A stretch of DNA of 64,000 bases from Prochlorococcus sp. AG-363-M17 (GTDB lineage Bacteria; Cyanobacteriota; Cyanobacteriia; PCC-6307; Cyanobiaceae): positions 1-64,000 of the forward strand of contig QCFS01000006.1 in the NCBI GenBank assembly GCA_003278365.1, in the 5' to 3' direction. A program made the position numbers and the translations under genes. Below, in pieces: positions 45,154 through 46,520 of the stretch. The notes under the pieces were generated by a model. It searched no databases and was not told where the DNA came from. It worked only from the letters and a program-made list of their open reading frames with translations. The first letter of the stretch is position 1; each line of letters begins with the position of its first letter.

Positions 45154-45480
45154 TCATCGGGAATCACTCTCAAGCTCAGCCTTCATCCTTTCCAAAGTCT
45201 TATTCATTTGTTCAAACATCTGTTCTGGCGTAACGCCGAACTGTCCTAATTGAGTTCTCAGTTGTTCAACAGTCATCTTGGCCTGAAAATCTTCAGAGAG
45301 TTCAAAGCGCTTCATAAATACTCTGTACCTCTCCATCAAACCTTCCATTGTTTCAATAAAAACCTTCTTACCCTCTCTGTCAAATTTTCCATAGTCAGAC
45401 CCAAGCTTCATTAATTCCTGATAATCAACAAAGAGTCTTTTAGCCTCCTCCTGAACAATTTCGGATTCAAAAAAAGCCAT
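45154..45480 (-). CDS. DUF1825 family protein
   Basis: A 108-residue, mostly helical, acidic protein. FFESEIVQEEAKRLFVDYQE at the start and GQFGVTPEQMFEQMNKTLER near the end fit the cyanobacterial DUF1825 family, of unknown function. There is no signal or membrane segment. It is the first gene of a minus-strand run with tyrS and pyrF and borders a large non-coding region. Confidence 0.85.
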   Translation of the reverse strand: MAFFESEIVQEEAKRLFVDYQELMKLGSDYGKFDREGKKVFIETMEGLMERYRVFMKRFELSEDFQAKMTVEQLRTQLGQFGVTPEQMFEQMNKTLERMKAELESDSR

Positions 45481-45694
45481 TTTCCTGGTTTAAGAACTGG
45501 TTTAAGCTATGACTCGATTGCTGTCTAATCACTTCAGCGAGGCAGAGTTCCACATCTGCGAGTCTAGTGTTTGCAGTGAGAGATTCACTTGAGTTTTGGC
45601 GGATGGTTAAAGAGCGTTTCAATATATTCTCTCTAAGAACAGACAATTCTGCAGGTAGTGAAAACCATTCGCCTTTTGAACTGAACTCTTATTG

Positions 45695-45723
45695 AATATC
45701 ATCACCTCCAGAATCGTGATATT
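45695..45723. repeat. AT-rich hairpin
   Basis: AATATCA pairs with TGATATT around a 15-base loop, with one further T-G pair inside. It is weak and has no T tract, so it is not a clear terminator. Confidence 0.4.
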
Positions 45724-45790
45724 GATAAAATAAGGCCTGGACAAACCGAATTCTTATAAGGTTATTCATACAGTTCTTATTTGACCATGC

Positions 45791-45835
45791 ATTCTTTTTA
45801 GGACCTATGCCTAGTCCATAGGTCCTAAAAAGAAT
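45791..45835. repeat. Perfect 19-bp inverted repeat with 7-base loop
   Basis: The arm ATTCTTTTTAGGACCTATG is repeated exactly in inverted form after CCTAGTC. The core GGACCTATG stem is followed on either strand by TAAAAAGAAT and not by a T tract, so it does not read as a normal intrinsic terminator. It lies 73 bases upstream of the GIY-YIG gene. It could be a protein-binding palindrome, an RNA hairpin or a miniature element. Confidence 0.85.
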
Positions 45836-45908
45836 CAAAAATCTCCATATCAAAATCCCCAATAGCTAATTCTTCAGAGCTAATGTTTGTAAAGCAGATT
45901 TTCTTGGC

Positions 45909-46520
45909 ATGGCTATAAGCCAAGGAGACTTATTCTCAGAAAAGCATCTAATTGACAACCAAGCTGTTTTTGGAGAAGTCCAACTTTCATCAGATTTTTT
46001 AAAGGCCTGGCAAAAACGCCTTCACTCTCATCAAAGAAATTTTTTCAAAGGTGAGAAGGAGATCACCGCTCAGCCATCACTCTTCTCAATTGAAATGGAT
46101 TCAGAAGAACAACAAATAAAGAAAACTGTTGATTCTCTCAACCCTCTTGAATTAGCTCCTTTATCAATGAGTTTTTGGAGAAGCCCCAACAATCAACATA
46201 AAGGTCCTGCAATTTACCTAGTAACCGACCGGCCCAAAGGACTTGATACTCCTATTTTGCTATATATAGGTGAAACAGTTGCAGCTGAAAAAAGATGGAA
46301 AGGTGATCATGACTGCAAAAGATACTTAGCAGCATATTCAGAGGCGTTATCCAAAACAAATATTGTCTGTAATCTCAGTATTAGATTCTTAACGGATGTT
46401 CCTACTTCTACCAAAACTCGAAGGAAGCTAGAGAGGCTTCTCATTGAGAGGTGGTTACCTCCTTTCAATAAAGAAACACGCTCTCGCTGGGTCACCCCAT
46501 TTACTAGCGAAATAAACTGA
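45909..46520 (+). CDS. GIY-YIG nuclease-fold protein, cyanobacterial
   Basis: A 203-residue protein. The second half matches the GIY-YIG fold: GPAIYLVTDRPKGL is the GIY strand, ILLYIGET the YIG strand, followed by KRWKGDHDCKRYLAAY with a possible catalytic Arg and His, and ERLLIERWLPPFNKE with the Glu and Asn of the motif. The N-terminal 90 residues are polar and not recognised. It is a stand-alone protein with no adjacent methylase, intron or transposase, so a role in repair or recombination is a guess. It is followed 38 bases later by pepA. Confidence 0.7.
   Translation: MAISQGDLFSEKHLIDNQAVFGEVQLSSDFLKAWQKRLHSHQRNFFKGEKEITAQPSLFSIEMDSEEQQIKKTVDSLNPLELAPLSMSFWRSPNNQHKGPAIYLVTDRPKGLDTPILLYIGETVAAEKRWKGDHDCKRYLAAYSEALSKTNIVCNLSIRFLTDVPTSTKTRRKLERLLIERWLPPFNKETRSRWVTPFTSEIN

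Follow-up and report, generated by a model that had tools for sequence, protein, structure and literature searches.

What is a perfect inverted repeat doing in the gap between two divergent genes of a compact genome, and does it need a function to be there? The window analysed here, a stretch of 64,000 nucleotides of Prochlorococcus DNA, raises this question at 45791-45835. A sequence-only reading of the window had pointed out two exactly matching 19-base arms with a 7-base spacer in a 428-base intergenic gap. An inverted-repeat scan and a direct reading of the sequence confirmed both the repeat and the gap, which has a DUF1825 gene on the minus strand to its left and the gene of a 203-aa protein on the plus strand to its right (Table 1). 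The 203-aa protein has no Pfam match at E 0.001 and may carry a GIY-YIG-like motif. When arms of at least 10 bases and spacers of 3-30 bases are considered, no other exact inverted repeat in the window is as long; the next has arms of 13 bases.

Table 1. Positions of the inverted repeat, of the gap that holds it and of the two flanking genes in the window
Feature	Position	Strand	Description
Left arm of inverted repeat, ATTCTTTTTAGGACCTATG	45791..45809	+	19 bases; exact complement of 45817-45835
Spacer CCTAGTC	45810..45816	.	7 bases between arms
Right arm of inverted repeat, CATAGGTCCTAAAAAGAAT	45817..45835	+	19 bases; single copy in genome
Gap holding the repeat, between divergent genes	45481..45908	.	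428 bases; 216, 254 and 261 bases in three genus genomes
Flanking gene, DUF1825 protein, 108 aa	45154..45480	-	PF08855, E 2e-51
Flanking gene, conserved 203-aa protein	45909..46520	+	match in 281/300 family genomes, own included

The 19-base repeat is far beyond chance. Five first-order Markov copies of a 464 kb sample from the window's genome contained no arm longer than 14 bases. Folded as RNA in stretches of 71 nucleotides, the hairpin reached -27.0 kcal/mol on the plus strand and -31.2 kcal/mol on the minus strand, and none of 200 dinucleotide shuffles folded as well on either strand. The hairpin resembles an intrinsic terminator in its stability, its GC core and its intergenic position. 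However, it differs from one in that it lies between divergent genes and not after a gene, and in that its tracts are reversed, with T before the GC core and A after it. Because this order is found on both strands, 45791-45835 is not an intrinsic terminator, as the sequence-only reading had already concluded. A simple scan of 45400-46000 also found neither terminator-like nor sigma-70-like sites there, where shuffles average 0.4 and 1.1, respectively.

Is the repeat exceptional for its genome? We defined a class of exact inverted repeats with arms of at least 15 bases and a spacer of 3-15 bases, and counted its members in samples from the genus and the family. The samples were 464 kb of the window's genome (G000, window included), 400 kb each of three genomes of the same genus (G001, G002 and G003), 400 kb each of two genomes of the same family (G292 and G317), and 100 kb each of four genomes from other genera of the family (G013, G064, G077 and G083). 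There were 7 members in the window's genome and 10, 3 and 10 in G001, G002 and G003 (23 in 1,200 kb for the latter three), none in G292 and none in G317 (800 kb together), and 1, 0, 3 and 3 in G013, G064, G077 and G083 (7 in 400 kb). Since exact arms of at least 15 bases also occur in G013, G077 and G083, the class extends beyond the genus. Furthermore, G001 is a single contig of 1,937,096 bases, so fragmented drafts are not the only genomes to have the class. For the G001 sample, as for that of G000, five Markov copies had no arm longer than 14 bases. Judged by eye, the sequences of the class differ from one another, except for the RNase P helix, which is found in two genomes. Within its own sample, the repeat at 45791-45835 ranks second in length among the 7, behind a 20-base arm at another place in the genome. 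Thus, the window repeat is ordinary in kind and not exceptional for its genus. Longer exact arms are found in two other genomes of the genus, namely 28 bases with a 4-base spacer at L083:18022-18081 and 30 bases with a 3-base spacer at L147:6034-6096.

The spread of long hairpins among the relatives is uneven, and this is a more interesting by-product of the analysis than the repeat itself. Of the hairpins in the 1,664 kb sampled from the genus, a crude filter against terminators left 24 (about 14 per Mb), and these 24 still include the RNase P helix (in two genomes), an arm within a short tandem array (L045) and missed terminator cores (e.g., L147). Arms that pass this filter are also present in three of the four other genera, of which the samples were thin. 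At about 14 per Mb, the Poisson chance of finding none in 800 kb is about 1e-5, for a contrast drawn after the fact between groups whose GC is 0.40 versus 0.31 and 0.54. Three Markov copies of G292 gave one 16-base arm, and those of G317 gave none of at least 12 bases. As a tentative explanation, which we regard as possible but would not call probable, part of the family may make or keep long perfect hairpins unusually often because its replication or repair background allows inverted repeats to be perfected by template switches, and the 19-base repeat would be one product. Should the uneven distribution hold, comparisons of closely related strains would give a measure of template-switch mutation in nature and of the frequency with which these accidents make terminators longer or change genes.

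We also considered loss of SbcCD, a hairpin nuclease, as the cause of the excess and rejected it. SbcD was above the curated cut-off in none of 14 chosen family genomes, among which are genomes with and without the excess; sub-threshold matches occurred in 6 of these 14 and covered about the first 90 of 252 positions. Among 36 genomes, 13 had SbcD above the cut-off, including one in the family and none of four genus members. As SbcD above that cut-off is found neither in the group with the excess nor in the group that lacks it, something else would have to be the cause.

How the long arms may have arisen can be approached at other loci, where a hairpin can be aligned with its counterpart in a relative. 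We made 15 such comparisons for 14 repeats, picked by hand; L154 against L181, in which L181 has no clear hairpin, and L045 against L130, a tandem array, were left out of the 15. At L147, arms of 30 bases surround a terminator core, and this core has 14 bases in L139 and 9 in L062. The arms of L079 have 19 bases versus 11 in L146, and those of L154 have 20 versus 13 in L076. In L080, all 17 of 17 pairs form, against 10 Watson-Crick and 4 G-T pairs in L150, which aligns without gaps, and in L046 (8367-8401) all 15 of 15 form, against 9 Watson-Crick and 4 G-T pairs in L161. The hairpins of L080 and L046 are inside long open frames common to the relative; the residues encoded by the L046 arms are identical in L161, and the differences there are therefore synonymous. 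Arms that are longer or more exact than those of a relative would fit correction of quasi-palindromes by template switching, with a polarity that is presumed from single relatives and, for L147 alone, from two, both of them shorter.

Some members of the class are functional structures. One, L069:5913, is a terminator of which the relative forms 10 of 18 pairs; another, compared between L054 and L164, is the RNase P helix, where the changes are paired and 16 of 16 pairs form. The terminators and the RNase P helix could be accounted for by selection on RNA structure, the coding cases less easily. At one aligned place, L137:5640-5677, L145:5063-5119 and L183:1571-1629 all have exact hairpins of differing sequence, with arms that measure 17, 22 and 27 bases, respectively; on alignment, the relative retains 14 of 17 and 16 of 22 pairs, which fits selection as well as mutation. 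At L059, L068, L069:3117 and L164:5206, the relative forms less than half of the Watson-Crick pairs and thus shows no quasi-palindromic precursor. For the hairpin of L161 itself, 15 of 28 pairs form in the relative.

On balance, we lean towards the view that the repeat at 45791-45835 is a product of template switching that has no required function, an origin that is assigned to it through its class, as the locus itself has no alignable homologue in which an imperfect ancestor or a donor arm could be seen. During replication, the growing strand would switch template to a nearby complementary stretch, copy a short reverse complement and then switch back. By this process, an imperfect inverted repeat would be made perfect, or a short stem would be lengthened. 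The outcome would be a long exact hairpin of which no function is required, and it would persist because its gap is non-coding. Consistent with such an origin, the locus has an exact repeat with a short spacer that exceeds chance, and this repeat is a single copy and not a member of a dispersed family. We infer the direction of the changes at the other loci, the same process at 45791-45835 and the present lack of function; the step from the class to the window locus is of the same nature, since the search for sequences homologous to the locus gave none. A caution that follows is that a long perfect palindrome in a compact genome is not always a site or an RNA.

Correction of quasi-palindromes by template switching is a known process of mutation, held to make arms longer and more exact, and template switching has been proposed for similar repeats. 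In the accessible portion of their text, Monttinen and Loytynoja (2022, PMC8794818) state that, in RNA genes, single template-switch events give perfect stems or mend existing pairing. The available part of a survey of palindromes (PMC4060949) reports an excess of them in almost all bacterial phyla, with template switching cited among the sources. An earlier report, as cited in parts of these two papers (PMC8794818, PMC4060949), found that closely spaced inverted repeats with arms of 6-9 bases in coding sequence exceed chance, and proposed template switching. Compared with these 6-9-base repeats as they are cited there, the present class shares the excess over chance and the proposed source, whereas its arms have 15-30 bases. 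The present loci are like those in the accessible portion of PMC8794818 in that relatives at other loci show the shorter or imperfect state; however, the cases described there are RNA genes, and ours are intergenic or coding, with a presumed polarity and with a window locus that has no homologue for comparison. Among the literature matches listed, no title or beginning of an abstract described long perfect hairpins in Prochlorococcus, and the main text of two surveys, in the portions available (PMC4060949, PMC10434271), does not mention Prochlorococcus.

The sequence-only reading had suggested a mobile miniature element, a structured small RNA or a regulator site, and we looked for further copies and for the same gap in relatives. 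The window's genome is a draft, 74% complete and in 54 contigs; a search of it with the repeat returned only the repeat's own locus. The 13-base inner arm occurs exactly in the genome only as the two arms, and with one mismatch at two places, versus three for a reversed control. Viral contigs contained neither the 18-base arm nor the paired core as an exact copy. A search of Rfam with 45400-46000 (matches up to E 1) gave no family at its cut-off. Both flanking genes were found in 17 of 31 loci (L004-L034), and 14 were dropped because DUF1825 was missing from the examined stretch; the 16 gaps outside the window comprise three of the genus and 13 other family loci. The length between the ends of the tblastn matches was 216, 254 and 261 bases in the three genus genomes and 634-1073 bases in the other 13, and the gap of G010 contains a 209-aa open reading frame. 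The 19-base repeat is absent from all 16 related gaps, where the arms of exact hairpins do not exceed 10 bases, and no homologue of the 45 bases or of their near flanks was found among the relatives examined. A lack of the repeat in sister strains is one of two things that the sequence-only reading had named as refuting its view; it had specified otherwise conserved gaps, however, and the gaps compared here are not otherwise conserved. The 203-aa protein is 56-58% identical to that of the genus members compared; these relatives are therefore distant, and absence from them is weak evidence against a species-level role. Taken together, the single copy, the lack of an Rfam family at cut-off, the lack of a viral copy and the absence from 16 gaps speak against a mobile element, a conserved small RNA and an operator, and none of the three suggestions gained support.

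Among the alternatives to template switching, an RNA hairpin with a job survives best, although we consider it unlikely. The hairpin could belong to a small RNA specific to the lineage, or it could serve stabilisation or processing within the leader of the 203-aa gene, which starts 73 bases downstream of the repeat. In favour of such a role, the RNA of either strand folds very stably, and terminators and the RNase P helix are among the other long hairpins of the genus. However, the only Rfam matches to the bare hairpin were sub-threshold ones to two miRNA models (24.2 against a cut-off of 88 bits, and 20.6 against 108), which we take to reflect hairpin shape alone. The scan of 45400-46000, with neither promoter-like nor terminator-like sites, and the 16 related gaps without such a hairpin, albeit from distant relatives, also count against an RNA role.

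Far less probable is an origin of the repeat as an artefact, made during whole-genome amplification or during assembly. Such amplification is known to yield inverted chimeras, and the incomplete, fragmented state of the draft leaves room for one. However, outside the arms neither flank is an inverted copy of the other, and the same class is found in the single-contig genomes G001, G013, G077 and G083. An operator, that is, a DNA site for a dimeric regulator of both divergent genes, appears slightly more doubtful still. Its position between divergently transcribed genes would suit such a site, but the half-sites of dimers are usually shorter than 19 exact bases per arm, the 13-base inner arm has no further exact copy in the genome, and the repeat is lacking from the same gap in the relatives examined, which are distant ones. 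Least credible is a mobile miniature element bounded by terminal inverted repeats. In its favour are the perfect repeat, a gap longer than in the three genus relatives and six matches of the paired 11-base core in GTDB contigs of distant phyla, versus a rough estimate of 0.5 expected by chance. Against it stand the single copy (in a 74% complete draft), an interior of 7 bases, the lack of arm and core in viral contigs and the titles of the six contigs, of which none names a cyanobacterium. Two of these six matches are in one Acidobacteria assembly and the others in Akkermansia, Planctomycetota, Opitutaceae and Eubacterium; records of the window's own or very near genomes may be absent from the contigs searched.

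The gap itself, described by the sequence-only reading as otherwise empty, is not quite so. Among 60 genomes, the 428-base gap had a DNA match in two, its own and G010, and the latter match covers only 57 bases (about 45624-45680), which are 81% identical to the same gap of G010. This block is upstream of the DUF1825 gene, and a similar-looking motif, AAGGAAGGGGTGAGAACCACACC, was seen in an alignment of family gaps. In five family loci, AAGGAAGGGGTGAGAACCACACC is located 148-172 bases upstream of DUF1825 with 1-6 mismatches; the window has no match to it within 7 mismatches. The block at about 45624-45680, or AAGGAAGGGGTGAGAACCACACC, may be a promoter or leader element. In addition, a different 20-base block, ACAGTGCGGATCAACGTAAT, which the window lacks, is located with at most 1 mismatch 52-54 bases upstream of DUF1825 in 8 of the 17 loci, namely L006, L007, L012, L008-L011 and L013.
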